64,000 nucleotides of DNA from Parahoeflea alexandrii (GTDB taxonomy: Bacteria; Pseudomonadota; Alphaproteobacteria; Rhizobiales; Rhizobiaceae): positions 682,001-746,000 of the forward strand of contig NZ_JAPWHB010000002.1 of NCBI RefSeq assembly GCF_027214025.1, written 5' to 3'. This document shows positions 1,327 to 60,663 of this stretch, piece after piece. A model generated the notes under the pieces. It was given only the letters and a program-made list of their open reading frames with translations. It was not told the DNA's origin and made no database searches. The stretch's first letter is position 1. Each line of letters starts with the position of its first letter. Both the position numbers and the translations under genes were made by a program.

Positions 1327-1336
1327 GGGGTCTCTC

Positions 1337-2170: not shown

Positions 2171-2173
2171 GCG

Positions 2174-3718: not shown

Positions 3719-3752
3719 TGATTTTTTATGTTGCAGTGCGCAATCTGATGCG

Positions 3753-5615: not shown

Positions 5616-5635
5616 ACGGTCGCCACCGCGACCGT
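5616..5635. other. short hairpin between convergent genes
   Basis: ACGGTCGC (5616-5623) pairs with GCGACCGT (5628-5635) around a 4-base loop, directly after the regulator stop codon. There is no T-tract, so it is not a convincing intrinsic terminator; it may help end or stabilise the transcript. Confidence 0.3.
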
Positions 5636-5664
5636 GCCGGCTTGCGGCTGCAGAGCGGCGGCGC

Positions 5665-6174
5665 TCAGCGCATCAGCTTGCCGATGGGGAAGATGGCGCA
5701 GGTTTCCGTGCCGTGCGCCAGGAGCTTGCCGGAACTGTCCCTGAGATAGGCCTCGGAGGTGGCAATCGTCTTGCCACGGTGCAGGATGCGGCCCTCGCAA
5801 GCGAGCTCCCCCATGTCGGGCAGGATCGGCCGGGTCAGGTTGAGCTTGAACTCCACCGTCGTGTAGCCCTCGCCGGGTTGCAGCGTCGTCATCACGGCGC
5901 AGGCAAGCGCTGAATCCATGATCGTTGCCGCCCAGCCGCCGTGAATGGTGCCAAGCGGGTTGAGATGGTCGACGCCCGGCGTGCCGGTGAAGACGATCAG
6001 CCCCTCCTCTACCGTGGTGAGCCAGAAGTTGAGCGTCCTCGCCATCGCGGCGCCCGGCAGGCGGCCTTCGAGAATGCCCTTCATCACTGACAGGCCGCCT
6101 TCTCTCGCCACCACATCGAGCGGCACGACGCCGGTGAACTGGCCGTTGGCGCGGTTGTTGCTGTCATCCATCAT
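5665..6174 (-). CDS. PaaI-family hotdog thioesterase
   Basis: Predicted acyl-CoA thioesterase of 169 aa with a 4HBT/hotdog core; the substrate is unknown. The central helix region reads [18 protein letters not shown], where HGG and the following Asp are the usual PaaI-type catalytic features, followed by the [13 protein letters not shown] strand. I chose the ATG at 6174 because it overlaps the recO stop as ATGA, with AGGA about 9 bases upstream. It is the last gene of the rsh-to-recO run, apparently by translational coupling; no functional link to recO is implied. Confidence 0.85.
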
Positions 6175-43255: not shown

Positions 43256-43377
43256 CAACGCCTGCCTTACGCTTGACCGCCCCGAAGCGCGCATCTTGTG
43301 AAGCCGGCGAAGCTGTGTCAACAGATTCCCTCGAGCCCTCAAAATCTATCGGTTTGATTTAGCGAAAGGAATGCAGC

Positions 43378-44094: not shown

Positions 44095-44605
44095 TGGAAG
44101 CCGCCGTCTTGTGCGGGCGCTTCAGGTCCCGATCAGCAAGTACGCAATAGTCTAATCCCGGGCCATCCGATTTGATTTCTGCCGTAGTGCGGCGCGGCCA
44201 AAGTGATTCTCCGGCAAGCCCATGTAAAAATGCCGCGCCGCATCCTAAAGTCTAACGAGAAGGCAAATACTCTATGTCGCGATGGACGATTGAGCTGTCG
44301 TGAACGCGCCCTGCAGAAATTTCCGAAAGGCGGTTAAAACAGCGGCAGGTTCCCATGGAGGGATCTAAATCGGGACGGACCAGGCGAGATTCGATACATT
44401 TAAAGGCCTTTGCGGCCCCACCGGAGCCAGTTTCCGAACGCCTGCCGCCAACGCGCCTCAGGCCATGGCCGGCAATGGATTGCATGAATATACAATAGTC
44501 TAATGGCATCCGAACGCCGGTCATGTTTGTCTTGAGACTGCTATTCGCGTAGCTATGGTGGCAAGACTGGGAGGTCTTGTCCGTTCCACTCCAGGGAGGA
44601 TTTTC
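44095..44605. promoter_or_regulatory. long leader/promoter region of the liv-type operon
   Basis: 510 bases with no credible gene. CAATAGTCTAAT occurs twice (44145-44156 and 44493-44504), and a third AGTCTAA is at 44249-44255. An 11-base inverted repeat TGCGGCGCGGC (44188-44198) / GCCGCGCCGCA (44232-44242) lies between and may terminate the racemase transcript. The second full repeat is about 100 bases before the binding-protein start. Confidence 0.5.
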
Positions 44606-45949
44606 ATGACTAAGTTCCAGATCAATCGTCGTTCGCTGATCAAGTCAGGCGCCGCCATCGGCGCCGGCCTTGCGCTGCCAACGATCTTTACCAGCTCGGC
44701 CCGTGCGTATTTGAACGAGCCGAAGGGCGGCACCGTCACGCTCGGCTTCAACGTTCCGCAGACCGGCCCCTATGCTGACGAGGGCCTGGATGAATTGCGC
44801 GCCCAGGAGCTGGCTGTCCAGCACCTGAACGGCGAAGGCGACGGCGGCATGCTCAACACCTTCTCGTCGAAGGCTCTGAAGGGCAACGGCATTTTGGGCA
44901 AAAAAGTCCAGTTCGTCTCGGGCGACACACAGACCAAGTCTGACGCGGCACGTGCATCGGCCAAGTCGATGATCGAAAAAGACGGCGCCATCATGATCAA
45001 CGGCGGATCGTCCTCGGGTGTGGCCGTGGCCGTGCAGGGTCTCTGCCAGGAAGCCGGCGTGATCTTCATGGCCGGCCTGACCCACTCCAACGACACCACC
45101 GGCAAGGACAAGAAGCGCAACGGTTTCCGTCACTTCTTCAACGCCTACATGTCGGGCGCTGCTCTCGCTCCTGTGCTGGCAAAGGCTTACGGTACCGATC
45201 GCCGCGCCTACCACCTGACCGCAGACTACACTTGGGGCTGGACGCAGCAGGAATCGATCGCGACCGCGACCGAAGCCATGGGCTGGGAAACCGTCAACAA
45301 CGTGCTCACGCCGCTGGCTTCGACCGACTTCTCGTCCTACATCGCTCCGGTCCTCAACTCCGGCGCCGACGTGCTGATCCTGAACCACTACGGCGGCAAC
45401 ATGGTCAACTCGCTGACCAACGCGGTGCAGTTCGGCCTGCGCGACAAGATGGTCAACGGCAAGCAGTTCGAGATCATCGTTCCGCTCTACTCCGAACTGA
45501 TGGCGGCCGGTGCGGGCGCCAACGTGCGCGGGGTGTATGGTTCGATGAACTGGAACTGGCAGCTGCAGGACGAAGGCTCCAAGGCCTTCGTGAAGTCCTT
45601 CGGCGAAAAGTACGGCCGCCCGCCTTCGAACTCCGCGCACACCTGCTACGTCCAGACGCTGCTTTATGCGGATGCCTGCGAGCGGGCCGGAACCTTTGAT
45701 CCCTGCGGCGTCGTTGACGCACTCGAAGGCTTCGAGTTCGACGGCATGGGCAACGGTCCGACCCTCTACCGTGCCGACGACCACCAGTGCTTCAAGGACG
45801 TGCTGGTCATGAAGGGCACCGACAACCCGACCAACGAATACGACACGCTGGAAATTGTCGAAGTGACGCCGCGTGCGCAGGTCGAATATGCTCCGGATCA
45901 CCCGATGTTTGCCGGTGGCGATCTCGGCGCGTGCAACTCGGGCGCATAA
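44606..45949 (+). CDS. livJ: branched-chain-amino-acid-type ABC substrate-binding protein, Tat signal
   Basis: Periplasmic type I binding protein of 447 aa. A twin-arginine signal (NRRSLIKSGAAIGAGLALP) starts at residue 7. The fold begins VTLGFNVPQTGPYADEG, typical of the HAAT/urea/amide group, and mature cysteines (GLCQEAG, ADACERAG, DPCGVV, HQCFKD, LGACNSGA) may form disulfides. GGGAGGA precedes the ATG at 44606. First gene of a five-gene importer; ligand may be an amino acid, amide or an aromatic acid given the catabolic locus next door. Confidence 0.88.
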   Translation: MTKFQINRRSLIKSGAAIGAGLALPTIFTSSARAYLNEPKGGTVTLGFNVPQTGPYADEGLDELRAQELAVQHLNGEGDGGMLNTFSSKALKGNGILGKKVQFVSGDTQTKSDAARASAKSMIEKDGAIMINGGSSSGVAVAVQGLCQEAGVIFMAGLTHSNDTTGKDKKRNGFRHFFNAYMSGAALAPVLAKAYGTDRRAYHLTADYTWGWTQQESIATATEAMGWETVNNVLTPLASTDFSSYIAPVLNSGADVLILNHYGGNMVNSLTNAVQFGLRDKMVNGKQFEIIVPLYSELMAAGAGANVRGVYGSMNWNWQLQDEGSKAFVKSFGEKYGRPPSNSAHTCYVQTLLYADACERAGTFDPCGVVDALEGFEFDGMGNGPTLYRADDHQCFKDVLVMKGTDNPTNEYDTLEIVEVTPRAQVEYAPDHPMFAGGDLGACNSGA

Positions 45950-45965
45950 GCCACTCCACAAGTTT

Positions 45966-45996
45966 GCCGCGCCGCCTCATGGCGGCGCGGCTTTCT
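45966..45996 (+). terminator. stem-loop with short T-tract after livJ
   Basis: GCCGCGCCGCC (45966-45976) pairs perfectly with GGCGGCGCGGC (45981-45991) around TCAT, followed by TTTCT. It should cause partial termination after the binding-protein gene, so the permease and ATPase genes are transcribed less. Confidence 0.75.
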
Positions 45997-46059
45997 ACTT
46001 GAATTGGGACTAGAGCCGTCGCGCCCCTCGCGCGCGGTTTTATCGATGCGGGCTTCACT

Positions 46060-47091
46060 ATGGACGCAATCATTCTCCAGATTCTGAACGGTCTCGACAA
46101 AGGCAGCGCCTATGCCCTGATCGCGCTCGGACTGACACTCATTTTCGGCACCCTGGGCGTGGTCAACTTCGCCCACGGTGCCCTGTTCATGCTCGGCTCC
46201 TTCTGTGCCGTCACGCTTCAGAAAATCCTGTCGCTGTCCTTCACGGTGGAAGATCCGACCCAGAAGGACTTCCTGGGCAACCCCCTGAAAGTCGATACGC
46301 CCTACATCGTCAGCTGGTTTGGCGATGCGACCGGCAACGCTATTCTCAATTGGTCGGTCCCACTGGCCATATTGTTCGCCATACCCGTCATGCTGCTGGT
46401 CGGCTATGTGATGGAACGCGGCCTGATCAAGCATTTCTACAAGCGCCCCCATGCCGATCAGATCCTCGTCACCTTCGGCCTGGCCATCGTCATTCAGGAA
46501 ATCGTCAAGTATTTCTACGGCGCCAACCCGATCCCGACACCGGCTCCGGACATGTTCCGCGGCTCTCTTGATTTCGGCGTGCTCATCGGCTTCGCCCAGA
46601 ACGAGATCATCTATCCGTATTGGCGGCTTGTGTACTTCCTGTTCTCGGCAGTCATTATCAGCGCGGTCTTCGCCTTCCTGCGCTTCACCACATTCGGCAT
46701 GGTGGTTCGGGCCGGCATGGCCGACCGCGAGACCGTCGGCCTGCTCGGCATCAACATCGACAAGCGCTTCACCATCATGTTCGGCATCGCGGCCGCCGTG
46801 GCTGGCCTTGCCGGCGTCATGTACGCACCGATCAACTCGCCGAACTACCACATGGGCATGGACTTCCTGGTGCTGTCCTTCGTCGTGGTTGTCGTCGGCG
46901 GCATGGGTTCGCTGCCGGGCGCTGTCCTGGCCGGTTTCCTGCTCGGCATTCTCGAAAGCTTCGCCTCGATGAACGAGGTCAAGTCGATCATCCCGGGCAT
47001 CGACCAAATCATCATCTATTTTGTTGCAATCATCATCCTTTTGACCCGCCCGCGCGGTCTTATGGGTCGCAAAGGCGTGATGGAGGAATAA
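46060..47091 (+). CDS. livH: branched-chain-amino-acid-type ABC permease LivH
   Basis: Permease of 343 aa with about eight hydrophobic helices. NGLDKGSAYALIALGLTLIFGTLGVVNFAHG at the N-terminus and GGMGSLPGAVLAGFLLGILES near the C-terminus are the LivH hallmarks. Slightly longer than E. coli LivH because of an inserted segment at about residues 60-95. It is followed by livM after 3 bases. Confidence 0.92.
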   Translation: MDAIILQILNGLDKGSAYALIALGLTLIFGTLGVVNFAHGALFMLGSFCAVTLQKILSLSFTVEDPTQKDFLGNPLKVDTPYIVSWFGDATGNAILNWSVPLAILFAIPVMLLVGYVMERGLIKHFYKRPHADQILVTFGLAIVIQEIVKYFYGANPIPTPAPDMFRGSLDFGVLIGFAQNEIIYPYWRLVYFLFSAVIISAVFAFLRFTTFGMVVRAGMADRETVGLLGINIDKRFTIMFGIAAAVAGLAGVMYAPINSPNYHMGMDFLVLSFVVVVVGGMGSLPGAVLAGFLLGILESFASMNEVKSIIPGIDQIIIYFVAIIILLTRPRGLMGRKGVMEE

Positions 47092-47094
47092 TCC

Positions 47095-48300
47095 ATGCTG
47101 GGTCTGAGTAAGAAAGACACTACCTTTCTCCTCGTCGTTATTTTTCTGACGTTGGCGACACCGATTCTGCTTCAGCCGTTCCCCGAAAGCTCGGCGCTGG
47201 CGCAGTTCAACGCCGGGTATCCGGATCTGATGCAGCGTTTCGCGATCTTCGGAATTTTCGCGATCGGCTTCAACATCCTCTTCGGCCTGACCGGCTACCT
47301 TTCCTTCGGCCATGCCGCCTTCCTGGGTGTCGGATCCTACTCCGTCGTCTGGATGTACAAGCTGCTGAACTACAACGTGGTGCCGGGCCTTGTCCTTGCC
47401 ATCATCATGTCCGGTCTGTTTGCCCTCTTCATCGGCTACATCTCGCTGCGCCGCTCGGGGATCTACTTCTCGATCCTCACCTTGGCATTCGCGCAGATGT
47501 CGTTCAACCTAGCCTACTCGGTGCTGACACCGCTGACCAATGGCGAAACCGGCCTGCAGGTCTACAACAACGACCCGCAGGTGCTGATGAGCGAAGGCAG
47601 CCCGACCTCGCCACACTTCTTCGGCATCGTCATGAACGAAGCCACGAAGGTGGATGTCGGCGGTTGGCAGTTCACGTTCAGCAACGGTTATTACTTCTGC
47701 GCCATCATCGCCATCATTGTGTTCTATCTGTCGCTGCGGATCTTCCGTTCGCCATTCGGCATCATGCTGCGGGCGATCAAGACCAACCAGACCCGGATGA
47801 ACTACACCGGCCTCAATCCCCGTCCCTACACGCTTGCAGCCTTTGTGATCTCCGGAATGTACGCGGGTCTTGCCGGCGGATTGCTAGCCGCGATGGATCC
47901 GCTCGCCGGCGCCGAGCGCATGCAGTGGACGGCCTCGGGCGAAGTGGTGCTGATGACCATCCTCGGCGGTGCGGGCACGCTCATGGGTCCGGTGCTTGGC
48001 GCGGGGTTCATCAAGTACTTCGAAAACATCTTCTCCAAGATCAACGACAACATCCTGCACAGCTGGTTCTCGGCACTTCCCGATGGGCTGGAAGACTTCG
48101 TTGTCTTCGTCTTCCATCCCTTCATCGGCAAGGGCTGGAACCTGACGCTCGGTCTGCTGTTCATGCTGGTCGTCATCTTCCTGCCCGGTGGCCTGATCGA
48201 GGGCGGAACCCGGATCTGGAACGCGATTACCGGCAAGAACCGGAAGAAGAAGCGCGAAGATGCCGCGCATCACCCCAAGCCCACCAGCCACGTCAACTGA
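47095..48300 (+). CDS. livM: branched-chain-amino-acid-type ABC permease LivM
   Basis: Permease of 401 aa. [31 protein letters not shown] and [20 protein letters not shown] are typical, with eight to nine helices and a basic C-terminal tail ([15 protein letters not shown]). It forms the channel with LivH. Confidence 0.92.
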
Positions 48301-48318
48301 TCCGCGGAGATATCAGAT

Positions 48319-49073
<755 letters not shown>

Positions 49074-49077
<4 letters not shown>

Positions 49078-49862
49078 GCCAGCTCGAACTCGACAGGGGC
49101 GTTGCAAACAACGACCGCCCCGATTTCTCGAAAAACGCCAACCATGCCGCAACCGCGCCGGCTTTTCTCGCGGTGCACGACATCCACGCCTATTACGGCG
49201 AGAGCTACATCGTGCAGGGCGTCAGCTTCAACGTCCATGAGGGCGAGATTCTCGCCCTGCTCGGCCGCAACGGCGCCGGCAAGACCTCGACGCTGCGCGC
49301 CATCGCCCAGATCGGCTCGCCGATGATGACCCACGGCGAGGTCTGGCTGGACCACCAGCCGCTGCACCGGATGAGCTCGCACGAGGCGTCCCGCGCCGGC
49401 CTGTCGCTGGTTCCAGAAGACCGCCGCATCATTCCCGGACTGACGGTCGAGGAGAACATCCAACTGGCCCAGATCGCGCCGCCGATCGGCTGGTCGATCG
49501 AGCGGATTTATGAGCTGTTTCCACGCCTCGGCGAACGCCGCAAGCAGGAAGGGGTGACCCTGTCGGGCGGCGAGCAGCAAATGCTGTCGATCGGCCGTGC
49601 ACTCGCCCGCGACATCAAGGTGCTCCTCCTCGACGAGCCTTACGAAGGTCTCGCGCCCGTCATCGTCGACGAGATCGAAAAGACGCTGAACATCATCAAG
49701 CAGCAGGGCATCACCACGATCCTGGTCGAGCAGAACGCCGTCCGCGCCCTGAAACTCGCCGATCGTGCGGTGATCCTGGAATCGGGCGGAGTCGTGTACG
49801 ACGGCACCGCCAAGGAAGTGCTGGAGAACGAGCAGCTGCGCCACGATTACCTGGCGATCTGA
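49074..49862 (+). CDS. livF: branched-chain-amino-acid-type ABC ATPase LivF
   Basis: ATPase of 262 aa. A 25-residue N-terminal extension precedes the domain; Walker A GRNGAGKTS near 65, signature LSGGEQQMLSIGRAL, Walker B VLLLDEPYEGLAP. The last gene of the operon, followed by a clear terminator. Confidence 0.92.
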
Positions 49863-49981: not shown

Positions 49982-50707
49982 CTACAGGTTGATCATGCCG
50001 ATGCTGGTGCCACCGCAGACATAGAGTGTCTGCCCGGTGACAAAGCCGCTCGACGGATCGCAGAAGAACAGGAACGCATTGCTGACATCGTCGACCGATC
50101 CCAGCCGTCCGACCGGGATCCTGTTGGCAAGATCTGCCTCGCGGTCGCTGCCTTTCGGGATGATGCCCCAGAAATTGTCGGTCTGGATCGGCCCCGGCGC
50201 CACCACATTGACGGTGATGCCATGCGGCGCCAGTTCCAGCGCCCAGGTCCGCGCCATGCCGATCATCCCGGCCTTGGTGGCGGAATAGGCAGTGCGCGTC
50301 GGCACGCCAAGCGCCGCGCGCGAGCCGTTGAACATCACCCGGCCGAATTTCTTCGCCTTCATCGACGGCAGGAAGCCCTGCAGCAGCATCAGCGCCGATC
50401 CAAGGTGCAGTTGCGCCAGACCGGTGATGTCCTCCGGCTTGGCCTCTTCCACCAGGTTGGGCCAGATCAGGCCCGCATTGTGAACGAAGTGGGTGACGGC
50501 ATGGTCGGCGACGATGCGGGAGGTGGCGGCTTTCACCGCCTCCGCATCGAGCAGATCGCATTCCAGGCTGACGAGCCGCTCATGCTCCCACTCAGGCGCA
50601 TTACGCGACAGGTTGATCACCGTGTAGCCGCGCTCGAGCAGTTTGCCGGCCAGGTCCGCGCCGATCCCCTTGGACGCGCCGGTGATGACGGCGGTGTATT
50701 CGCTCAT
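49982..50707 (-). CDS. SDR-family oxidoreductase (3-oxoacyl-reductase-like)
   Basis: Classical short-chain dehydrogenase (241 aa). TGASKGIG near residue 9, NAG near 77, active-site YSATK near 140 and VNVVAPGPI are intact, so the enzyme should be active with NAD(P). The ATG at 50707 overlaps the cyclase-gene stop as ATGA and has GGAG upstream. Last gene of the eight-gene leftward Rieske operon; it may oxidise or reduce a hydroxy or dihydrodiol intermediate. Confidence 0.88.
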   Translation of the reverse strand: MSEYTAVITGASKGIGADLAGKLLERGYTVINLSRNAPEWEHERLVSLECDLLDAEAVKAATSRIVADHAVTHFVHNAGLIWPNLVEEAKPEDITGLAQLHLGSALMLLQGFLPSMKAKKFGRVMFNGSRAALGVPTRTAYSATKAGMIGMARTWALELAPHGITVNVVAPGPIQTDNFWGIIPKGSDREADLANRIPVGRLGSVDDVSNAFLFFCDPSSGFVTGQTLYVCGGTSIGMINL

Positions 50708-51501
50708 GCTCTTTCTCCAGAACCTGTCCGTACGGGCACCAGCGCCAGCACCCTGAGCGGGCTGCCGGTGCCGCCCTTGATCTTCAGCGGCGGCGCGATC
50801 AGCATCGCGCCCGTCGGCGGCAGCCGGTCGAGATTGGATAGGCATTGCAGCCCGTACTTTCCCGCCCCATGGAGCAGGTAATGCGCCGGATAGGGTGGCG
50901 AGTAATGCGACCCCTGCCCCGCATCGGTGCCAACCGTCTCGGTTCCGAAGCCGCGAATATCCCTGGCCAGCAAGGCCTCGATCGCCGCTGGAGTGGGCCC
51001 CGGTGAATGCGGCCCGTCGTCAGCCATGTTGAGATACTCGGCGCCGCGCCGTTTCGACCAGTCTGTGCGCATCAGCACCCAGCTGTCCGCCGGAATCGGG
51101 CCATGCTCGGCCTCCCAGGCGTCGATGATCTCCGGCGTCAGCTCGAAATCATCGTTGCGCGCAGCACCTTCGGAGCAATCGATCACCACCACCGGCCCGA
51201 CGAAAACCGAGGGATCGATTTCATCGACAGCGCCATTGGCGACGTCGCGGCCCGACACCCAGTGGATCGGCGCATCGAAATGCGTGCCGGTATGTTCGTT
51301 CATCGAGATATTGTGCCATTTCCATGCCGGCCCACGGCCGTCATAGGCAGAGACTTCCTCCATCCGGAACCGGGCGCACTGGCCGAATTCCGGCGGCAGC
51401 ACAATCACCGGGAAATCCGGATCCAGCGTGTGGGTCAGATCGACAATTTCAACCGAGCCGTCAGCAAGTGCCGCGGCAAGTCCTTCGAGTGGATTGCTCA
51501 T
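50704..51501 (-). CDS. cyclase-family metal-dependent hydrolase
   Basis: Protein of 265 aa in the cyclase/kynurenine-formamidase family. The metal site HTGTHFDAPIHW is near residue 70, with DLTHTL near the N-terminus and a C-terminal hydrophobic block. Relatives hydrolyse arylformamides or act in degradation of aromatics and isatin. Its start overlaps the DUF35-SDR stop by one base. Substrate unknown. Confidence 0.85.
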   Translation of the reverse strand: MSNPLEGLAAALADGSVEIVDLTHTLDPDFPVIVLPPEFGQCARFRMEEVSAYDGRGPAWKWHNISMNEHTGTHFDAPIHWVSGRDVANGAVDEIDPSVFVGPVVVIDCSEGAARNDDFELTPEIIDAWEAEHGPIPADSWVLMRTDWSKRRGAEYLNMADDGPHSPGPTPAAIEALLARDIRGFGTETVGTDAGQGSHYSPPYPAHYLLHGAGKYGLQCLSNLDRLPPTGAMLIAPPLKIKGGTGSPLRVLALVPVRTGSGERA

Positions 51502-52745
51502 CAGGCCCCTCCCGCCAGTTCACGTTCCAGAACCTTGGGATCACGCCGCCAGCGCTCCTCCAGATCTTTCGCGACATCTCCGCAATAGACATCCTCGAGC
51601 CCTTCGCAGAGCGCTTCGACGATGGACTTGGAGAGTACTTTCGGCGCCACTTTCGGCGGTGGCAGCGGTTGATGCCATTCGTCATCGGTCGGCCCGGCAA
51701 AGACATTGATCACCCTGAGTCCCGAAGCGCGGAACTCGGCCCTCAGCGTCTGGCTGATCGACAGCGCCGCCGCCTGGCTGGCCGAAAACGCGCCATACTG
51801 CGGGTCAGCCGACAGGGCGTGCACCGACAGGAGATTGACGAAGGCAACGGCGGAATTGACGCCGTCAGCGGTGCGCGACGCCATCCCCGGGCCGAAGGCC
51901 TGCGCCAGCCGCATCAGCCCCAGCGCATTGATCTCGAATTCTTCACGCGCGAACACCGTGTCGGAGCCGAGCACGCCACCGGGCCGCACATGCCGCGCGG
52001 TGTTGATCAGGATATCGGTCTTGCCGCCGATCTCTGCCGCCAGTTTCTTCACCGACGACGGGTCGGAAACATCGAGCGGCATCACCGACACCCGCTCCAG
52101 CGCAGCGATCGCCGCATGATCCGAGCCGCGCCGCCAGCTTTCGGACTCCCCGACAAAGATGTGCGACGCGCCCGCTTTCAGCAGCGCCTCGATCAGAGGC
52201 CCTGTCGCCGGCGACCTGATGTCGGTGATCAGCACCCGCCGGTGTTTCGGGTGCGCGGTGAGCTCGCGCAATTGCGGATCGTCCTCCATGTCGGGACTCC
52301 TTTCCTGGGGCAGAGCGATCATCACGCCCTGTCCGGCCTTGTCGAGCTTGAGATCCATGCGAATTGTGTCGCCACGGCCGACATCGCCGTGCAGATGGCA
52401 CAGAACCGTCGGCCCGGCCGCGAGCCGCACCAGGCCGGAACGCCACGGCAGCCGCTCGCGGTAATAGGGATCGGGCGAGGCGTGAATGCGGGTCTCGGCG
52501 ATCACCGTTCCGTCCCGCGCCGTCTCGCGCCAGGCGAGATCAACCGAGAGGCAGGTGCAGCATGCATCGCGCGGCGGATACTGGACAGTTCCGCACGCTT
52601 CGCAATGCTGCAGCGAAAACACGCCCCGCGCCGCGGCGGACGTCAGCCCCAGCGCCGCCCGCGAACGCATCTGCGGCGGCAGTGTCGGCACCATCTGGCG
52701 CAGTTGCGGGTTTTTCTTTTGCGGCGGCAGAAGCTTTTCGGTCAT
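51501..52745 (-). CDS. DUF35 (Zn-ribbon/OB-fold) protein fused to a degenerate SDR domain
   Basis: Two-domain protein of 414 aa. Residues about 35-150 form a DUF35 module with zinc-ribbon cysteines C48, C51, C62 and C65 and an OB-fold. Residues about 165-400 form an SDR-like domain in which the glycine motif is absent (TDIRSPATGP) and the catalytic Tyr and Lys are replaced (FSASQ at 320-324 instead of YSASK). The SDR part is thus probably not a dehydrogenase. DUF35 proteins pair with thiolase-fold partners, and such a gene lies immediately upstream with a 4-base overlap. Confidence 0.85.
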   Translation of the reverse strand: MTEKLLPPQKKNPQLRQMVPTLPPQMRSRAALGLTSAAARGVFSLQHCEACGTVQYPPRDACCTCLSVDLAWRETARDGTVIAETRIHASPDPYYRERLPWRSGLVRLAAGPTVLCHLHGDVGRGDTIRMDLKLDKAGQGVMIALPQERSPDMEDDPQLRELTAHPKHRRVLITDIRSPATGPLIEALLKAGASHIFVGESESWRRGSDHAAIAALERVSVMPLDVSDPSSVKKLAAEIGGKTDILINTARHVRPGGVLGSDTVFAREEFEINALGLMRLAQAFGPGMASRTADGVNSAVAFVNLLSVHALSADPQYGAFSASQAAALSISQTLRAEFRASGLRVINVFAGPTDDEWHQPLPPPKVAPKVLSKSIVEALCEGLEDVYCGDVAKDLEERWRRDPKVLERELAGGA

Positions 52746-53911
52746 GCACCCTCTCCCGTCAGGATCGTCGCCGATGAACACAAGCCCCGGTCGTAATTGA
52801 TCATCCCGAACCCCGACACCATCGCGGTCCGGGCCTTGGCAACCTGCGTGCCGCCGGCCTGGCCGGTGACCTGCCTGATCGCCTCGACCAGCCCGAGATA
52901 ACCGCCGGCGGCGCCCGCCTGCCCGGCAGACAGCTGCCCGCCCGAGGTGTTGTGCGGAAAGTCGCCGGTGATCGTCAGGTCGTGTTCGCGCACGAAGCGC
53001 GCTCCCTCGCCCTTGGCGCAAAACCCCAGATCCTCGAACTGCATCATCGAGATCACCGGGTAATCATCATAGGTCTGCAGCAGATCTATGGCTTCAGGCC
53101 CGCAACCCGCCATCCCGTAGAGCTCGTCGATGTCCATCGCCCAGCCGCCGCGCAGCTGAACCGGGTCCTCGGGAAAGGCGTTGTGCCGCTCGATCGTGGC
53201 CGAGATCCTCGCATAGGCGAGACCGCGCTTCTGCGCCTCCTCCTCACGCATCACCAGAAAGCCTTCGGCGCCTGCGCAGGGCATGACGCAATCGAACAGT
53301 CCGAACGGTTCGGAAATCGGCCGGGCGGAGAGATATTGCTCAAGCGTGAGCGGCGATTTCATCATGGCGTTGGGATAGTTCAGCGCATTGGCGCGCTGGG
53401 CCACCGCGATGCGGCCGAAGTCCTCGCGCGTCACCCCGTACTCGGCCATGTAGGCGTCAGCGATCAGCGCGAAACTGGCATTCGGCCCGCCCGATCCGTA
53501 GGGATAGGAGGCATCCATCGCAAAGCGCGAGAACGAAGACAGCAGCTGCCGGAAACTGTCGATCCGGTTGGCATCCCCGGCAATGCAGGCGACCACGTCG
53601 ACGTCACCGACCTGCACCGCGCGCGCGGCACGCCTCAGCGCCACCACCCCGCTGGCGCCGCCCATCGGAATGCTGTCAAGCCATCGCGGACTCACTCCCA
53701 GATGCTGGGTCAGCCCCACAGGCGTGTCGGGAAACAGCGTGAAACTGGAGACCGAGAACCCGTCCAGCTCCCGCGGTGAAAGCCCCGCCACTTCGAGCGT
53801 CTGCTTCAGCGCACGCGCGATCCACCAGTGCGCGGTTTCCTGCGAATAACGGACATAGGGCACCGAGACAGGCGCGGTCAAAACCACCCCGTCGTAACTC
53901 TGCCGCTTCAC
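52742..53911 (-). CDS. thiolase-fold protein lacking thiolase catalytic residues (Ltp2-like)
   Basis: Thiolase/SCP2-like protein of 389 aa. The nucleophile-Cys site reads GGASG (residues 84-88) with no Cys, and the GHP box reads GQAGAAG, so the catalytic His is also missing. NTSGGQLS is kept. This pattern, with the DUF35 partner next to it, resembles the steroid side-chain retro-aldolase Ltp2/ChsH2 rather than a thiolase. The GTG at 53911 overlaps the ligase stop as GTGA. A C-C lyase role on an acyl-CoA is inference. Confidence 0.82.
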   Translation of the reverse strand: MKRQSYDGVVLTAPVSVPYVRYSQETAHWWIARALKQTLEVAGLSPRELDGFSVSSFTLFPDTPVGLTQHLGVSPRWLDSIPMGGASGVVALRRAARAVQVGDVDVVACIAGDANRIDSFRQLLSSFSRFAMDASYPYGSGGPNASFALIADAYMAEYGVTREDFGRIAVAQRANALNYPNAMMKSPLTLEQYLSARPISEPFGLFDCVMPCAGAEGFLVMREEEAQKRGLAYARISATIERHNAFPEDPVQLRGGWAMDIDELYGMAGCGPEAIDLLQTYDDYPVISMMQFEDLGFCAKGEGARFVREHDLTITGDFPHNTSGGQLSAGQAGAAGGYLGLVEAIRQVTGQAGGTQVAKARTAMVSGFGMINYDRGLCSSATILTGEGA

Positions 53912-55551
53912 GCTGCCGTCCGCTTCTTCATGCCGCGAGTGTCTACCGTTGCCGGGTCCTGCACAAGCCTCTCGGCCAGCTCCTTGAGTTCCCGGCGCTG
54001 GATTTTCTGTGTCGATGTCAGTGGCAGGGCGTCGACAAAGGCGACATAGCCCGGCGCCTTGTAATAGGCGAGCTGCCCCAGGCACCAGCCGACAATCTCG
54101 AGGGCCAGCGCCTCGCCCGGCTCGCCGTCCACTTTCAGGCAGGCAAACACCTCGTCCCCGCGCACCGGATCGGCCACCGCCGCAACCGCGGCGGCCTTGA
54201 CCGCCGGATGCCGCATCAGCGCCGATTCGACTTCGACAGCGGCGATGTTCTCGCCCGATCGACGGATCACGTTCTTCTTGCGGTCGACGAAGAATATCGA
54301 GCCGTCTGCTTCCCGGCGGACGATGTCGCCGGTGTGAAACCAGCTGTCCGCCCAGGCTTCATCGGTGGCGTCAGCGTTCTTGAAATAGCCTGCGAAAAAT
54401 CCGCGGCGGGGATCCCTGCCCGCATGCCGGACCAGCAGCTCGCCCGGTCCGCTTTGGCTCACATAGCCGTCTGTATCGACGATCCGCGCCTCGAGTTCCG
54501 GCCCGGGCTTGCCCAGGCAGCTCTCGCCCACCCGGCGCGGCAGCCGGTTGGCGCAGATCACCGCCCCCGCACCGGTTTCCGTCATGGCCCAGGCCTCAAC
54601 CAGCGGAAAGCCGAAGCGGGCCTCGAATGCCGCATGGAGTTTCGGATCGACGCCTGCACCGAACCCGAACCGGACTGCATGGTCCCTGTCCGACTGCGCC
54701 TCCGGCGCGCCCATCAGCATCGACGGCATGACGCCGAGATAATGCAGGCATGTGGCACCGCTTTCGCGCACGCTGCGCCACCAGCTCGACGGATGAAACC
54801 GGTCGAGCACGGTCAGGCAGCCGCCGACGGCGACCATCGCCATGAAGGAATAGGCCATGGCGTTCATGTGAAAGATCGGCAGCGGCGTGATCATCCGCTC
54901 GCCACCGGTCGTCAGTGCGCAAAGCCCCCCGGCATTGGCATACCAGCGTCCGGCTTCAAGAAAATAGGTGTTGGTCAGTATGCAGCCCTTGGGGCTGCCG
55001 GTGGTGCCGGAGGTATAGAGCAGCGCTGCTTCCATCTCCTCGCCACCCAGTTCCTCGCCGCCCTCGTCTACGCGCAGCGCAACCGGCCCCGCTGTGCCGG
55101 GCTGGGGCACCGGATCCCCCGGCGCGATTACCGGAACCGAAAGCCCGGCTTCCCGGGCCGCAGCGGCGAGACCATCGCAACGATCCGCAAGCGCCACGAT
55201 CAGCGAAGGCTCAGAGTGTCCCGCCATATAGGTGAGTTCCGAATGCCTCAAGTCCGGATTGACCGGAACCACGGAGGCGCCGATCCGGTTGAGCGCAAGC
55301 AGCCAGACAAAAAACTGCGGCCGGTTTTCCAGAAGCAGCATGACCCGGAATCCCGGGCCATAGCCTTTCTGTTGCAGCGCCGCCGCAAGTTCCGTGACTT
55401 GCTCCTGTGCCTGCCGGTAGCTCGTCTCGCCGGGTTCGATGCCGTAGATCGCGGCCGTCTCCGCCATGACGTTGAACACGGGACGGTCCGGATAAAGCCC
55501 GGCGCTGGCGGCAAAGGCCTGCCAGATGGTCTGGGTTCCCGGCTCGATCAT
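53908..55551 (-). CDS. AMP-forming acyl-CoA ligase
   Basis: ANL-superfamily ligase of 547 aa. The P-loop is LLYTSGTTGSPKG near residue 180, EAWAMTETGA near 320 is the A5 motif, WFHTGDIVRREADG near 405 and the catalytic Lys lies in TSTQKIQRRELK near 520. It should activate a carboxylic acid to the CoA thioester that feeds the thiolase-like and SDR proteins. Overlaps the dioxygenase beta gene by 4 bases. Substrate unknown. Confidence 0.92.
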   Translation of the reverse strand: MIEPGTQTIWQAFAASAGLYPDRPVFNVMAETAAIYGIEPGETSYRQAQEQVTELAAALQQKGYGPGFRVMLLLENRPQFFVWLLALNRIGASVVPVNPDLRHSELTYMAGHSEPSLIVALADRCDGLAAAAREAGLSVPVIAPGDPVPQPGTAGPVALRVDEGGEELGGEEMEAALLYTSGTTGSPKGCILTNTYFLEAGRWYANAGGLCALTTGGERMITPLPIFHMNAMAYSFMAMVAVGGCLTVLDRFHPSSWWRSVRESGATCLHYLGVMPSMLMGAPEAQSDRDHAVRFGFGAGVDPKLHAAFEARFGFPLVEAWAMTETGAGAVICANRLPRRVGESCLGKPGPELEARIVDTDGYVSQSGPGELLVRHAGRDPRRGFFAGYFKNADATDEAWADSWFHTGDIVRREADGSIFFVDRKKNVIRRSGENIAAVEVESALMRHPAVKAAAVAAVADPVRGDEVFACLKVDGEPGEALALEIVGWCLGQLAYYKAPGYVAFVDALPLTSTQKIQRRELKELAERLVQDPATVDTRGMKKRTAA

Positions 55552-56027
55552 GGCAGCAGCTGGATGTTGCGGAAGGCCGCGTCGCAGTTGAGGATGTCGA
55601 CCCGCTTGTTGGCGATCCGGAGCTTGCCGTCAACCAGCGCGAGTTCGTGCCGCGCGGTCAGCGCCAGCAGGAACTGCTCGTCAAGCCGGGTCTCAACATA
55701 ATGCATGAAGGTCTTGGTCACGAAGGTTCCGGCGGCCTCGTCGATCTCGTCGACAAACGGACGCTGGATGACGTGATGACACCGGCTCTTGGGCTTCTGA
55801 GAGAAGGTGCGCGCCCCGTTGAGCCGCTCGACCCGCAATTTCAGCATGAACAGGTCTTCATACATCAGCGAGGTCACGTTCAGCGGATCGGTCTGGTTGT
55901 AATCGAGCGGCATCCAGTAGTGGCCATCCTTGAGCCACAGCGCGAGCCATTCATCGTAGCGCCCTTCATCGAGCATGCGCACTTCTTCATAGATGAAGTC
56001 GATCAGCTGATCCTTGGAAACACTCAT
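55548..56027 (-). CDS. ring-hydroxylating oxygenase, small (beta) subunit
   Basis: Protein of 159 aa with the SnoaL-like cone fold of Rieske oxygenase beta subunits. EVRMLDEGRYDEWLALWLKDGHYWMPL near the N-terminus and the C-terminal strands (ALVDGKLRIANKRVDIL) are typical. Structural partner of the alpha subunit in an (alpha-beta)3 complex; the genes overlap by 4 bases. Confidence 0.9.
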   Translation of the reverse strand: MSVSKDQLIDFIYEEVRMLDEGRYDEWLALWLKDGHYWMPLDYNQTDPLNVTSLMYEDLFMLKLRVERLNGARTFSQKPKSRCHHVIQRPFVDEIDEAAGTFVTKTFMHYVETRLDEQFLLALTARHELALVDGKLRIANKRVDILNCDAAFRNIQLLP

Positions 56028-57367
56028 TCCGCAGCCTCCCGGACATCGTCCATGTCAGAAATCATGAACTTGACCCAGGCATCGAACTGGTTGCGCATCT
56101 GCCGCTCCGTGGTGCCGTTTTCGACCTTTTCCTCGCTGAAGTCCTCATCCTCCTGGTAGAGCCGCTGGATGTTGACCCATTCCATTCCGTCAGACTGCAA
56201 CCCCTCCTGCGCCCGCTCGTACATTTCCAGATCGTCATGCCCGACGATCGACGTCGGCGCGTTGATCATGCGGTTGTACATCGCGGTGCGCGCGGTCAGC
56301 TGCTCGGGCCCGTCGACGAGGCGGTAGATGTAGCTCTCCACCAGCGTCTTGTCCGCCGCCAGCGGAATGAAAACGCGAAGCTGCTGGATCGGCCCCTTGA
56401 TCATGATGTTGGGGAAATAGACCGTGTTGTGGCGGTTTTCGCCCAGGATTGCTTTGGCCTTTTCCTCGCCATAGGCCTCGACCATCTTCTCCATGTATCC
56501 GGGAATGGCCGAGTAGTTGGAGTGGATCGAATGATGCACGCCGGTGTGGCCATGGCCGTTCGGCCAGGTCCGGATGCCCATGTTCTCGAAGAACTCGTAG
56601 GGCGACATGAAGGGTGCGATGATCTCCATTGCCGGCGGCAACGGCGTGCCTTCCGGCATGTCGAGTTCTTCCCACAGCTTGACCGCGGTACCGGCCGAAC
56701 TCTCGTGCGCCACCATCGGATGGCAGGTGTCGGTCTGGTTCTCGACCAGCATTTTCCAGTTGCAGTGATGCATGTATCTGAGCGGCGGCCCGGCGACCTC
56801 GAGCCTGCCCGCAGGCGAGCGGTCGACCATGTTGTCGATCGAAGACAGCGAACCGTCGAAGTACTCCTCGAACGAGATCCCGGTTTCGGCCAGGCGGCAG
56901 AAGATGAAGCCGCGGTAGTTCCTGACTTCACCTACGGCCTTCATGCCCTTGCCACTGTCGCTTTTGTCAAAGCCGGTGTTCTCGTAGCCCTTCTTAAGCG
57001 GGATCGCCAAGAGGCAGCCGTCGGTCTTGAAGGACCAGGCATGATAGGGACAGCGGAAGAACTTGCCGGTGTTGCCGGCCCTGTCGATGACGATCTTCGT
57101 GCCCTTGTGCGGGCAGCGATTGTGCAGCACATGCACCTCGCCGTCGCTGTGGCGAACCTGTATGACCGGCTGGTCACCCACTTGCGTGGAGAAATAGTCG
57201 CCCTTGTTCGGCGTCTGGCTTTCATGCCCGACAAACACCCACGCATTGGCAAACAGGTGCTTCATCTCGAGCTTGTAGATTTCCGGATCAATGTAGACGT
57301 CGCGATGGACCTCGTTGCCGCGAAAAAGGTCCCTGATCGCAGCCGGATTGTCTGAATATCGTGCCAT
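56024..57367 (-). CDS. Rieske ring-hydroxylating oxygenase, large (alpha) subunit
   Basis: Oxygenase of 447 aa. The [2Fe-2S] Rieske ligands are C85/H87 (RCPHKG) and C106/H109 (RCPYHAW). The mononuclear iron site has H216 and H221 with the bridging Asp D213 (ENQTDTCHPMVAH). Length, beta subunit and VanB-type reductase indicate a two- to three-component aromatic oxygenase, possibly in the benzoate/salicylate/anthranilate group. The substrate cannot be read from sequence. It begins 10 bases after the reductase stop. Confidence 0.92.
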   Translation of the reverse strand: MARYSDNPAAIRDLFRGNEVHRDVYIDPEIYKLEMKHLFANAWVFVGHESQTPNKGDYFSTQVGDQPVIQVRHSDGEVHVLHNRCPHKGTKIVIDRAGNTGKFFRCPYHAWSFKTDGCLLAIPLKKGYENTGFDKSDSGKGMKAVGEVRNYRGFIFCRLAETGISFEEYFDGSLSSIDNMVDRSPAGRLEVAGPPLRYMHHCNWKMLVENQTDTCHPMVAHESSAGTAVKLWEELDMPEGTPLPPAMEIIAPFMSPYEFFENMGIRTWPNGHGHTGVHHSIHSNYSAIPGYMEKMVEAYGEEKAKAILGENRHNTVYFPNIMIKGPIQQLRVFIPLAADKTLVESYIYRLVDGPEQLTARTAMYNRMINAPTSIVGHDDLEMYERAQEGLQSDGMEWVNIQRLYQEDEDFSEEKVENGTTERQMRNQFDAWVKFMISDMDDVREAAE

Positions 57368-57377
57368 TCCTACCTCC

Positions 57378-58352
57378 CTATAGATCGAGCACGAGGCGGG
57401 CGGATTTCGCCCGGCTCACGCAAATCTGCATGACTTTGCCTTCAGCCTTCTCGGCATCGCTGAGCACCACATCGCGGTGATCGGGCTCGCCCGCGATCAC
57501 CTCGGTCTGACAGATCCCGCAATCGCCGCGCAGACAGTCGTGAATGAGTTCGACGCCGCCTGCCTCGAGCACATCGATGATGGTCTTTCCGACCGGGATC
57601 TCGAAGACCTCGCCGGTCGCCCGGATCTCGACCTCGAAGGCCCTGTCACCAGCCTGCTCGGCGGCCGAGGCAAACAGTTCGAAATGGATCCGGTCCGGTG
57701 TAACGCCTGCCGCCTCCATCGCCGATTTCACCGCCTCGATCATGCCCTTGGGGCCGCAGACATAAACGTGCTCTTCCGGGCCGACTGATGCGGCCAGCGC
57801 GGCAATGTTCAACGCGGTTTCGGGCTGGTCATCGAAATGCAGGGTCAGTTGATCGCCAAACGCCTGTTCCAGCTCGTCCCGGTAGGCCATCGCCGCGCTG
57901 GTCCGTCCGGCATAGTGGAAGCGGAACGGAGTTTCATCGTGCTTGAGCGCGTTTGCCATGCTGACGATCGGCGTGACGCCGATGCCGCCGGCAATCAGCA
58001 GCGCCGGCTTGCCCGCAACCAGCGGAAAATCGTTGCCCGGCGGCAGGGCCAGGACCTCGTCATCAATAGCAAGATCGTGCATGTACCGCGACCCGCCGGT
58101 ACTCTGCGCCTCGAGCTGGACTGCAAATCGGTACCGGCCGACGCCGCTGCCCGGTGACACAGGCTCGAAATCGACGAGCGAATAGGACCGCTCTCCGGCC
58201 GGCAAACTGAACTTGACGTGAGCCCCGGGCGTGTAGCCGGCAAGCGCCCCACCGTCACTGCGGACAAATTCCAGCTGCCGAACGGTTTCCGTCAGCATGC
58301 GGGCAGACGCGACTTTCAATTTGACCGGCTCAAGCACTTCCCAGATCTCCAT
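57378..58352 (-). CDS. PDR/VanB-family oxygenase reductase
   Basis: Flavin-iron-sulfur reductase (324 aa), electron donor for the oxygenase. An FMN/FAD domain (RSYSLVDF near 53) and NAD domain (IAGGIGVTPIVSM near 118) are followed by a C-terminal plant-type [2Fe-2S] ferredoxin with C-x4-C-x2-C (DCLRGDCGIC) and the last Cys in MQICVSRA. The ATG at 58352 is the likely start; no strong ribosome-binding site is visible. First gene of the leftward operon. Confidence 0.88.
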   Translation of the reverse strand: MEIWEVLEPVKLKVASARMLTETVRQLEFVRSDGGALAGYTPGAHVKFSLPAGERSYSLVDFEPVSPGSGVGRYRFAVQLEAQSTGGSRYMHDLAIDDEVLALPPGNDFPLVAGKPALLIAGGIGVTPIVSMANALKHDETPFRFHYAGRTSAAMAYRDELEQAFGDQLTLHFDDQPETALNIAALAASVGPEEHVYVCGPKGMIEAVKSAMEAAGVTPDRIHFELFASAAEQAGDRAFEVEIRATGEVFEIPVGKTIIDVLEAGGVELIHDCLRGDCGICQTEVIAGEPDHRDVVLSDAEKAEGKVMQICVSRAKSARLVLDL

Positions 58353-58359
58353 TGCCAAG

Positions 58360-58454: not shown

Positions 58455-58970
58455 ATGAACAAGACAATCGAAAACCCCAACGACCCTTTTGTCCCAAACT
58501 ACCTGCTCTATCTTCTGGCGGCGGCAAGCGAGGCGGCAAGCGCGCGCTTTCACAGTCACGTTCGCACCCGCGGGCTGCGCGTTCCCGAGTGGCGCGTCAT
58601 GGCCTGCCTGACCGATACCGATGGCTCCATGGTCACCGAACTGGCGCGTTACGCCATGATCGAACAATCGCGCCTGACAAAGATTATCATCCAGATGGAT
58701 GCCCGCGGCCTGGTCAGCCGCCGAAGCGATCCGAAGGACGGTCGCCGCGTGCGGGTGTTCCTCACGCCGCAGGGGCGGACTCTTGCCGATGAACTGGTTG
58801 CGGACGCGAGAGCCCATGAACTGGAATTGCTCAAATCGTTCCACGGCGGCGATGGCACCGAAATCAAGGACACGTTGCGGGCATTGATCCGCCATCTCGA
58901 ATCCGACCAGTCCGGTCAAGGCGACAATACTGTTTCGCTCGCCAGAAACGCCGAAACTGCAGATTCATGA
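58455..58970 (+). CDS. MarR-family transcriptional regulator
   Basis: Winged-helix regulator of 171 aa. The core LRVPEWRVMACL, VTELARYAMIEQSRLTKIIIQM and the wing RRSDPKDGRRVRVFLTPQG are typical of MarR. It is divergent from the dioxygenase operon and followed by the TRAP genes, so it probably represses both, responding to an aromatic or acyl-CoA ligand. The ribosome-binding site is weak. Confidence 0.88.
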   Translation: MNKTIENPNDPFVPNYLLYLLAAASEAASARFHSHVRTRGLRVPEWRVMACLTDTDGSMVTELARYAMIEQSRLTKIIIQMDARGLVSRRSDPKDGRRVRVFLTPQGRTLADELVADARAHELELLKSFHGGDGTEIKDTLRALIRHLESDQSGQGDNTVSLARNAETADS

Positions 58971-59074: not shown

Positions 59075-60097
59075 ATGAAAAAGTTTGGGACCCTAATGGC
59101 AAGCACGATGCTGGCGGTTGGCTTTTCCGCCTCAGCAATGGCTGCGGACATCAATCTGACCATTTCAAGCTGGCTGCCGCCATCACATCCGATCAATGTC
59201 GACATGCTCGAGGGCCTCGTCGACATGATGGAAGAAGCCACTGACGGCAAGGTCAGCGGCGAGATCAAGTTGGGCCTTGCCCCCCCGCCGGCGCAGATGG
59301 ACCTGATTCTTGATGGTGCCGCCGATATTACCATCATCTTCAACGGCTACCAGCCGGGACGTTTCGTAGGCACCAAGCTGATCGAGCTTCCGGGCTATGA
59401 AGGCAATGCCGAAGCCGCATCCGTCGCCTATTGGCAGGCCCACGAGAAGTACCTGGCCAAGCTCGACGAGTTCAAGGGCACCAAGGTCATCGCGCTGACC
59501 ACCCATGGCCCCGGCCAGATCCACTCCAACAAGCCAGTCAACACCCTGGCCGATCTCAATGGCCTCAAGACCCGCCTCGGCGGCGGCGTTTCGGCCGATG
59601 TCGGCGCCGAACTCGGCCTGATCGGCATACAGGTGCCAGCTCCGAAGGTCTACGAGACGCTGTCTTCGGGCGCGGCCGACGCGGTTGCCATGAACATGGG
59701 CGAACGCCTCAGCTTCAAGCTCAACGAAGTCGCCAAGAATGTCTACGAAATGCCGGGCGGCTTCTACCGCGGCGCCTTTGCCGTGCTCATGAGCGAAGAC
59801 AAGTTCAACTCGATGCCTGACGATGTGAAGGCAGCGCTTGAATCAAAGGTCTTCGGTGAGCCCGCTTCCAAGATGATGGGCATCGCCTGGGACAAGAGCG
59901 ACGAAGCCGCACGCGAAGCCACCCTCGCCGCCGGTGACAACAAGATCGTCACCGCCAGCGAAGAGGACCAGGCCAAGTTCGCTGAAATGGCTGCGCGGGT
60001 GCGCACCAAGGTCCTCGCCGAGATCTCGGCGCTGGGGATCGATGCAGACGCCGCCCACGAAATGGTGGCATCGACAATGGCATCCTACGGCAAGTAA
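59075..60097 (+). CDS. dctP: TRAP transporter solute-binding protein (second system)
   Basis: Periplasmic protein of 340 aa. The signal peptide ends near SAMA-AD (residue 24). TISSWLPPSHPINVDMLEGL and LNGLKTRLGGGVSADVGAELG hold the typical DctP helix and the carboxylate-binding Arg. GGGAGGA precedes the ATG at 59075. It is unrelated in detail to the first TRAP binding protein and likely brings the substrate of the Rieske operon into the cell. Confidence 0.9.
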   Translation: MKKFGTLMASTMLAVGFSASAMAADINLTISSWLPPSHPINVDMLEGLVDMMEEATDGKVSGEIKLGLAPPPAQMDLILDGAADITIIFNGYQPGRFVGTKLIELPGYEGNAEAASVAYWQAHEKYLAKLDEFKGTKVIALTTHGPGQIHSNKPVNTLADLNGLKTRLGGGVSADVGAELGLIGIQVPAPKVYETLSSGAADAVAMNMGERLSFKLNEVAKNVYEMPGGFYRGAFAVLMSEDKFNSMPDDVKAALESKVFGEPASKMMGIAWDKSDEAAREATLAAGDNKIVTASEEDQAKFAEMAARVRTKVLAEISALGIDADAAHEMVASTMASYGK

Positions 60098-60103
60098 TAT
60101 CGT

Positions 60104-60133
60104 TGCGGGGGCATGCACCGCCCTGCCCCCGCA
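60104..60133 (+). other. GC stem-loop between dctP and dctQ (second TRAP system)
   Basis: TGCGGGGGCA (60104-60113) pairs perfectly with TGCCCCCGCA (60124-60133) around 10 bases. It is 7 bases after the binding-protein stop, the same position as in the first TRAP operon. No T-tract. Confidence 0.65.
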
Positions 60134-60156
60134 CACCCGCCTGCAAGGAGCCTTTC

Positions 60157-60663
60157 ATGAAATCCTTCGCCAGATTGCTGAACCGGTTGACGGAGTTGCC
60201 GATGCTCCTCGCCGCGGTAACCCTGTTCATCCTGATGGTGCTGACATTTGCCGATGTCATCATGCGCTCCACCTTCTCGGCCCCCATCGAGGCGGCCACC
60301 GAACTCACCCGCATCGCCATGGCGGTGATCGTCTTTGCCTCGCTGCCGGTTGTGTCCGGCCGCGCCGAGCATATCGTTGTCGACCTGCTCGATCCGATCT
60401 TCCTGCGCGCCGGCATCAAGCGCATTCTCGACGGGCTGATCATGCTGATCTGCGGCATTCTGTTGGTCTGGCCCGCCATGCGGTCGTTTGATCTGGCCAA
60501 CCGCGCCAGGAGTTACGGCGATCTGACCGAATATCTCTCGATCCCGGTGTTCTACATCACTTGGTTCATCGCCTTCATGACGCTGGTCACCGCAATCACG
60601 ATGGCGCTGCGCGGCATGGTGACTCTCTTCAAGCCAGACCTTCTCCGAGGCGCACATGATTGA
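60157..60663 (+). CDS. dctQ: TRAP transporter small permease (second system)
   Basis: Protein of 168 aa with four hydrophobic helices. TFADVIMRSTFSAPIEAATELTRIAMAVIVF and GRAEHIVVDLL are the DctQ marks. The ATG at 60157 has AAGGAG 6 bases upstream. It overlaps the large-permease gene by 8 bases. Confidence 0.9.
   Translation: MKSFARLLNRLTELPMLLAAVTLFILMVLTFADVIMRSTFSAPIEAATELTRIAMAVIVFASLPVVSGRAEHIVVDLLDPIFLRAGIKRILDGLIMLICGILLVWPAMRSFDLANRARSYGDLTEYLSIPVFYITWFIAFMTLVTAITMALRGMVTLFKPDLLRGAHD

Follow-up and report, generated by a model that had tools for sequence, protein, structure and literature searches.

A proposed IadG–IadH acyl-CoA retro-aldolase in the auxin-degradation (iad) operon of Parahoeflea alexandrii

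The stretch of DNA analyzed here (the window; 64,000 nucleotides of Parahoeflea alexandrii, assembly GCF_027214025.1, contig NZ_JAPWHB010000002.1, positions 682,001 to 746,000) carries eight minus-strand genes, iadC to iadJ, that form an iad operon for the degradation of indole-3-acetic acid (auxin). At its center, iadG (52742..53911) encodes a 389-aa thiolase-fold protein devoid of the thiolase Cys and His residues, and iadH (51501..52745), which overlaps iadG by 4 bp, a 414-aa protein joining a zinc-ribbon/OB module of the DUF35 type (residues ~34-148) to a putative pseudoenzyme of the short-chain dehydrogenase/reductase (SDR) fold (~166-395). Judged from motifs, kinship and gene context, IadG and IadH are very likely the acyl-coenzyme A (acyl-CoA) retro-aldolase of this operon, predicted to cleave dioxindole-3-acetyl-CoA to isatin and acetyl-CoA.

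The case begins with the active site of IadG. Alignment to thiolases of solved structure places Gly85 where the nucleophilic Cys belongs, Tyr281 at the His of the HDAF motif, and Gln331 at the His of GHP; none of the three hallmarks of a degradative thiolase (the nucleophilic Cys, the His of HDxF, and the His of GHP) is thus present. An earlier note on this DNA had singled out GGASG (residues 84-88) and GQAGAAG (330-336) as replacements of the Cys and GHP motifs, a reading that the alignment bears out. The best thiolase-like matches in the fetched loci comprise 123 distinct proteins; Gly85 is retained in 122 of them, and YDDY (281-284), Gln326 and Gln331 in 121. The nucleophilic Cys survives only in L070, one of the two same-genome paralogs, L069 and L070, that account for the exceptions; a Cys two places after Gly85, found in three rows, is not at the nucleophile position. 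Both paralogs lie on contig C66 of the window's genome near DUF35 matches, L069 being aldolase-like (YDSF, no Cys) and L070 thiolase-like (Cys, HDAF, and GHP).

By sequence as well as by fold, the closest solved relative of IadG is Sal, of the bile-acid side-chain aldolase Sal-Shy(DUF35) from Comamonas testosteroni (9myr; 9.7e-50); by sequence, 4u4e ranks second and Ltp2, of the steroid side-chain aldolase Ltp2-ChsH2(DUF35) (6ok1), third. An AlphaFold2 model of IadG (predicted local distance difference test score, pLDDT, 84.3; predicted template modeling score, pTM, 0.90) likewise retrieves Sal first (8.3e-26) and Ltp2 second (2.0e-24). In a 24-row tree, Sal, Ltp2, 4u4e, and L069 share a group with IadG (100/99) from which BbsB, 7yvy, and L070 are separated, and the IadG proteins form a clade of their own (99/99). 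The suggestion of the earlier note that the protein belongs to a C–C lyase is thus well supported. The benzoylsuccinyl-CoA thiolase BbsAB (7pxp) shares the SCP2-type thiolase fold, and BbsA, the partner of BbsB, is a DUF35-type zinc subunit. BbsB nonetheless bears HDAF in place of YDDY and stands outside the Sal/Ltp2/IadG group.

The correspondence to Sal extends to individual catalytic residues. In Sal, Tyr302 serves as the base and Cys304 as the acid, aided by Gln347 and Gln352, with a Gly at the thiolase Cys place; this Gly89 contacts the substrate hydroxyl (PMC12329534). Read from printed alignments, in which the residue numbers of the chain and of the paper differ by 24, Y302, Q347, Q352, and G89 of Sal correspond to Y281, Q326, Q331, and G85 of IadG, all among the positions kept in 121 or 122 of the 123 rows. 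IadG therefore shares with Sal the Gly in place of Cys, the Tyr in a YDxY motif, the two glutamines, and a DUF35 partner, encoded beside it and fused to another enzyme-type domain. It departs from Sal in having YDDY instead of YDCY, which puts Asp283 at the place of the acid Cys304, and the partners differ too: the DUF35 part of Shy is joined to a working MaoC hydratase and has a Cys3His zinc site, in contrast to the putative pseudo-SDR and the four Cys of IadH. The predicted product is isatin rather than a steroid aldehyde. With Ltp2, IadG has in common the thiolase fold, the Tyr base (YDHF in Ltp2), the DUF35 partner, and a proposed cleavage at a hydroxyl-bearing ring carbon (C17-OH in Ltp2), but His296 is replaced by Asp283 and the acid Tyr344 by Gln331, as the position is equated in the Sal paper. 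Neither known catalytic acid is therefore found in IadG; with Asp283 and Gln331 in the acid places, its active site would be a third variant, distinct from those of both Sal and Ltp2.

The genes around the pair identify the pathway. The first, iadC (57378..58358), encodes the NAD-binding and 2Fe-2S reductase of a Rieske system (Pfam NAD_binding_1 and Fer2), followed by the alpha and beta subunits of a Rieske oxygenase, iadD (56024..57367; 576 bits to 9o71) and iadE (55548..56027; 5e-43 to chain 7yls_A, whose sequence is the same in 9o71), and by an AMP-forming acyl-CoA ligase, iadF (53908..55551; Pfam AMP-binding, 2.7e-64). Beyond iadG and iadH lie iadI (50704..51501), an isatin hydrolase of family PF04199 (1.2e-144 to isatin hydrolase A, 5nnb), and iadJ (49982..50707), an intact SDR dehydrogenase matched by NCBIfam SDR models that keeps both TGxxxGxG and YxxxK. 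From iadD onward, each gene overlaps the next by 1 to 4 bp, which favors a single transcript. A divergent gene for a MarR-family regulator (58455..58970, plus strand; Pfam MarR, 7.7e-10) lies upstream of iadC, and its relatives are present in 66 fetched loci (two overlapping locus sets).

The order C-D-E-F-G-H-I-J is that of the Variovorax paradoxus iad operon (IadC-IadK2), given as C, D, E, F, G, H-I-J from IMG gene numbers (PMC10374108), and 9o71, to which IadD is close, is the crystal structure of V. paradoxus IadDE (PMC12633357). The window's IadD is ~56% identical to the Variovorax-type copies. Three genomes of one genus from another proteobacterial family (L184, L188, and L158) carry an IadD 94-95% identical to the crystallized protein, together with the same gene order, a fused IadH (53% identical to the window copy), and VQTYDDYPVI in IadG; two others (L181 and L191) are not the closest to 9o71. 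A benzoate- or anthranilate-type dioxygenase pathway was rejected, as it drew only sub-cutoff NCBIfam matches and 9o71 is a far better match. Steroid degradation, the setting of Ltp2, was likewise set aside: Pfam finds no MaoC or other obvious steroid-type protein among seven operon proteins, with IadJ scanned by NCBIfam. The non-steroid, Rieske-linked setting envisaged in the earlier note thus finds support, and the pathway is that of auxin breakdown. In Variovorax, deletion and transfer of the iad gene set have demonstrated the conversion of auxin to anthranilate (PMC12633357); this marine genome may convert indole-3-acetate to anthranilate as well.

The gene directly after iadH bears on the preceding step. 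The window's IadI carries HTGTHFDAPIH, which fits the metal motif HxG[T/A]HxDxPxH of isatin hydrolases, and the GLQC motif (PMC6117287). In Roseibium aggregatum (L101), the gene at the same place is identical, over all 252 of the 252 residues compared, to the crystallized LaIHA, which hydrolyzes isatin with a Km of 16 μM (PMC6117287). By its motifs and its closeness to a measured enzyme, IadI is thus an isatin hydrolase, and its position implies that isatin should be the product of the preceding step.

A route can be proposed. The Rieske oxygenase IadCDE and the dehydrogenase IadJ would convert indole-3-acetate to dioxindole-3-acetate, the product proposed for them in Variovorax from tracing data (PMC12633357), and IadF would turn this acid into its CoA thioester. 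Tyr281 of IadG would then take the proton of the C3 hydroxyl, whereupon the bond between ring C3 and the side-chain CH2 would break to give isatin, and the acetyl-CoA enolate would be protonated either by Asp283 or via a proton relay through Gln326/Gln331. On the model of Sal-Shy and Ltp2-ChsH2, the DUF35 part of IadH is expected to bind a dimer of IadG; its SDR part would be a pseudoenzyme retained for a structural or docking role, and IadI would open isatin to isatinate. In dioxindole-3-acetyl-CoA, C3 is quaternary and places a tertiary hydroxyl on the beta carbon, whose oxidation to a beta-ketone is impossible. Thiolysis is thereby closed, and retro-aldol cleavage would give acetyl-CoA and isatin, precisely what the next enzyme, IadI, needs.

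The fusion and its neighbors recur in other genomes. Of 297 genomes of the family that were searched, 34 besides the window's own carry the DUF35-SDR fusion (38-79% identity); its open frame and this conservation rule out gene decay and mis-assembly. Neighbors were counted over 121 distinct fusion loci (partial proteins, duplicates, L071, and L072 excluded), with the loci having room for the neighbor in question as denominators. A thiolase-like gene lies directly upstream of the fusion in 116/116 and an isatin hydrolase directly downstream in 114/117 (the misses being L182, L065, and L066); farther upstream, an acyl-CoA ligase (at least 40% identity) occurs in 99/111, a Rieske alpha subunit (at least 50% identity) in 91/109, and an iadC relative in 77/99. 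The stable core is thus IadG, IadH, and isatin hydrolase, usually together with the ligase, whereas the oxygenase varies. The core occurs in marine and rhizobia-related bacteria (Hoeflea, Sulfitobacter, Roseibium, Ruegeria, Nitratireductor, and Mesorhizobium) and in Variovorax-type genomes; the window's IadH is 93% identical to the Hoeflea alexandrii copy (GTDB). In Labrenzia sp. DG1229 (L116, about 8263-9017), the isatin hydrolase match falls into two parts read in different frames, the result of a frameshift or of a sequencing error.

Several observations weigh against the retro-aldolase assignment. Sal becomes inactive once Cys304 is changed to Ala, Ser, or His, and Asp is not among the changes seen in the available portions of that report (PMC12329534); in addition, Gln161 of Sal, proposed to form part of its oxyanion hole, corresponds to Pro143 in IadG. 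The second-best solved sequence, 4u4e, carries the name thiolase only, and the best NCBIfam model for IadG, itself below cut-off, is named acetyl-CoA acetyltransferase. True thiolases score close to Sal in the fold comparison (template modeling, TM, score of 0.82 for BbsB, 7pxp, vs. 0.84 for Sal), and fold alone is therefore not decisive; in the tree, the long branches of Sal, Ltp2, and BbsB leave the exact sister of IadG unsure. The first steps of the pathway are disputed, the IadCDE product being given elsewhere as 2-oxindole-3-acetate (PMC10374108). What accumulates in Variovorax without iadI is C8H7NO2, the formula of dioxindole, and not isatin (PMC12633357), such that C8H7NO2 has to be assumed to be a side product of isatin reduction. 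Lastly, 18 of the 109 loci with room have no linked IadD. A search of 15 genomes whose fetched stretch lacks IadD (14 of the 18, plus G018 with an unfused DUF35) found an IadD relative in four, three of them in one genus, at a distance of about 14-34 kb from iadH along the same contig; at 1e-60, the remaining 11 yielded none. Their module would be supplied either by a different oxygenase or by dioxindole-3-acetate that the cells import. L059, L062, and L054 exemplify loci in which the IadG-IadH-isatin hydrolase core stands without a Rieske oxygenase linked to it. A scan of ten proteins for a Rieske substitute in loci such as L059, L062, and L159 found none, only transporter parts, an alpha/beta hydrolase, an aldehyde dehydrogenase, and an SDR.

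These unlinked modules bear on the most credible alternative, namely that IadG-IadH is a retro-aldolase that in this genome acts on another 3-hydroxyacyl-CoA, for instance one derived from a substituted or different indole acid. The modest (about 56%) identity of the window's IadD to the Variovorax-type copies would also suit such a shift, as would a second, related module in the same genome (L067, contig C31). Yet the set of eight iad genes is complete and in order, and the isatin hydrolase next to the pair very closely resembles the isatin-active LaIHA (E 1.2e-144), which makes a different substrate unlikely.

Turning to IadH, a single open frame holds zf-ChsH2 (7.4e-9), OB_ChsH2_C (1.4e-10), and adh_short (7.9e-14) by Pfam, just as the earlier note had described an adjoining DUF35 module fused to an SDR-like domain. 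In the latter, FSASQ (320-324) takes the place of YxxxK and TDIRSPATG (174-182) that of TGxxxGxG. Residues were counted over 123 aligned rows, of which 122 are fusions and one, L072, is a stand-alone-type SDR. The zinc-site Cys 48, 51, 62, and 65 are present in 122 of the 123, L072 lacking all four. The glycine motif occurs in 0/122 fusions; the catalytic Tyr persists in 17/122 and the Lys in 15/122, and YxxxK is complete only in L190. The 15 Lys-bearing rows all come from the family of Variovorax-type genomes (L158 and L179-L192), whose IadH, the same fusion as in the window, keeps the Lys (FSASK, vs. FSASQ in the window) but reads TDGKTETGQ at the glycine motif. The notion of a dead SDR thus stands as regards FSASQ and the glycine motif and needs tempering as regards the rest: the dehydrogenase domain is eroded to different degrees among the fusions.

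The SDR part of IadH is probably a pseudoenzyme that no longer works as a dehydrogenase, a view resting on these motifs. That it still acts on a substrate or binds NAD(P) through unusual residues is distinctly unlikely, even though its fold is kept (AlphaFold2 model with pLDDT 84.9; TM 0.90, to target, with NADP-bound 5u4s), as are Asp225 (98%) and Asn248 (100%), and the surviving Tyr and Lys residues could be read in the same sense. Moreover, L072 combines LSASK, with Leu for Tyr, with an intact TGANRGIG, and loss of the Tyr alone therefore need not end cofactor binding. The glycine loop, though, is the least conserved stretch tested in the fusions (mean 0.57 vs. 0.705 for the domain), with 95% of random sets of SDR positions at least as conserved. 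By comparison, IadJ of the same operon retains all five motif residues in 97/97 distinct rows at 50% identity or more, and in 101/101 when weaker matches are included. Conservation in the two long SDR helices and in the substrate loop slightly exceeds that of the remaining positions, a weak effect that 9-10% of random sets equal.

If not catalysis, the pseudo-SDR may provide a scaffold, a dimer partner, or a docking site. The scaffold role put forward in the earlier note is plausible, although L068 encodes an unfused 143-aa DUF35 protein, without an SDR, beside a 66%-identical IadG with YDDY. On a bolder and decidedly speculative view, IadH could be the hub of an auxin complex, a retired pathway enzyme turned connector: its DUF35 end would hold IadG and its pseudo-SDR end would pair with IadJ or dock IadI, with dioxindole-3-acetyl-CoA and isatin passed between the enzymes. 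The module at L067 (contig C31:1-12000; genes at 508-5692, minus strand) comprises an SDR, an acyl-CoA ligase, a YDDY thiolase-like protein 56-57% identical to IadG, and a DUF35 protein whose tail is a far more eroded SDR than that of IadH; the contig ends just past it, and a linked isatin hydrolase cannot be judged there.

Published genetics can now be set against these assignments. In Variovorax, deletion of iadF, iadG, iadH, or iadI each lowers anthranilate and leads to accumulation of C10H9NO4 (PMC12633357, a 2025 preprint). IadG and IadH are thereby shown to be needed, and the phenotypes fit either the retro-aldol scheme or that of the preprint, which differs in its roles for the pair: a ketothiolase, IadG, and an alcohol dehydrogenase, IadH, would with IadF remove the side chain reductively to give C8H7NO2, on which IadI then acts (PMC12633357). 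The same work places C8H7NO3 downstream of IadI. By formula, isatin (C8H5NO2) plus water is C8H7NO3 and dioxindole (C8H7NO2) plus water is C8H9NO3; the preprint's own formulas are thus consistent with IadI acting on isatin. Although C8H7NO2 accumulates not only without iadI but also in a strain expressing iadCDEFGH_JK2 (PMC12633357), and dioxindole and isatin were both detected in Variovorax cultures (PMC9613470), the preprint scheme is highly improbable, given an IadG without any of the thiolase Cys/His set, the loss of the glycine motif in every fusion, Variovorax-type IadH included, a C8H7NO3 not obtainable by hydrolysis of dioxindole, and an IadI that is by sequence an isatin hydrolase.

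Earlier work had already described the operon and its genes and shown that they are needed; new here are the proposed assignment of the enzyme, the YDDY site, and a pseudo-SDR common to the whole family. The fusion itself, which the earlier note took to be novel, is rejected as such: DUF35 fused to short-chain-type Rossmann domains was listed in 2010 (PMC2954200), and iadH has already been deleted in Variovorax (PMC12633357). An aldolase role for IadG or IadH was not found in a literature search confined to open-license PMC papers, nor do the YDDY site and the family-wide pseudo-SDR appear in the portions consulted of PMC12633357, PMC10374108, PMC9613470, PMC8383072, and PMC11321319, and a term search of PMC11630574 gave no match. 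In the same partial sources, auxin side-chain removal in the anthranilate route has been assigned from gene annotations. An IadG-IadH retro-aldolase, if real, would fill this step and correct the scheme of ketothiolase and alcohol dehydrogenase. It would also extend DUF35-dependent thiolase-fold aldolases beyond steroids, and make YDDY a third active-site solution to acyl-CoA retro-aldol cleavage. The spread of the core bears on the turnover of hormones of plants, and perhaps of algae, by bacteria.

Several other genes flank the operon. A thiamine diphosphate (ThDP) enzyme of the acetolactate synthase/benzoylformate decarboxylase type (41558-43342, minus strand) could decarboxylate isatinate, but a relative of at least 38% identity, as would befit the operon's isatinate decarboxylase, is found in neither fetched locus set. 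A second Rieske alpha subunit (62126-63328, plus strand), nearest to a glycine betaine monooxygenase model below cut-off, is not matched by a relative next to iad in any other fetched locus. A branched-chain-type ATP-binding cassette transporter set (44555-49862, plus strand) is convergent with iadJ, and a close relative of its binding protein lies near iad in only two fetched loci. Beside iadC, finally, lies a tripartite ATP-independent periplasmic (TRAP) transporter set (59075-61969, plus strand); relatives of its DctP (at least 38% identity) occur near iad in 28 fetched loci (two overlapping sets), which makes it a candidate auxin importer in the marine carriers.

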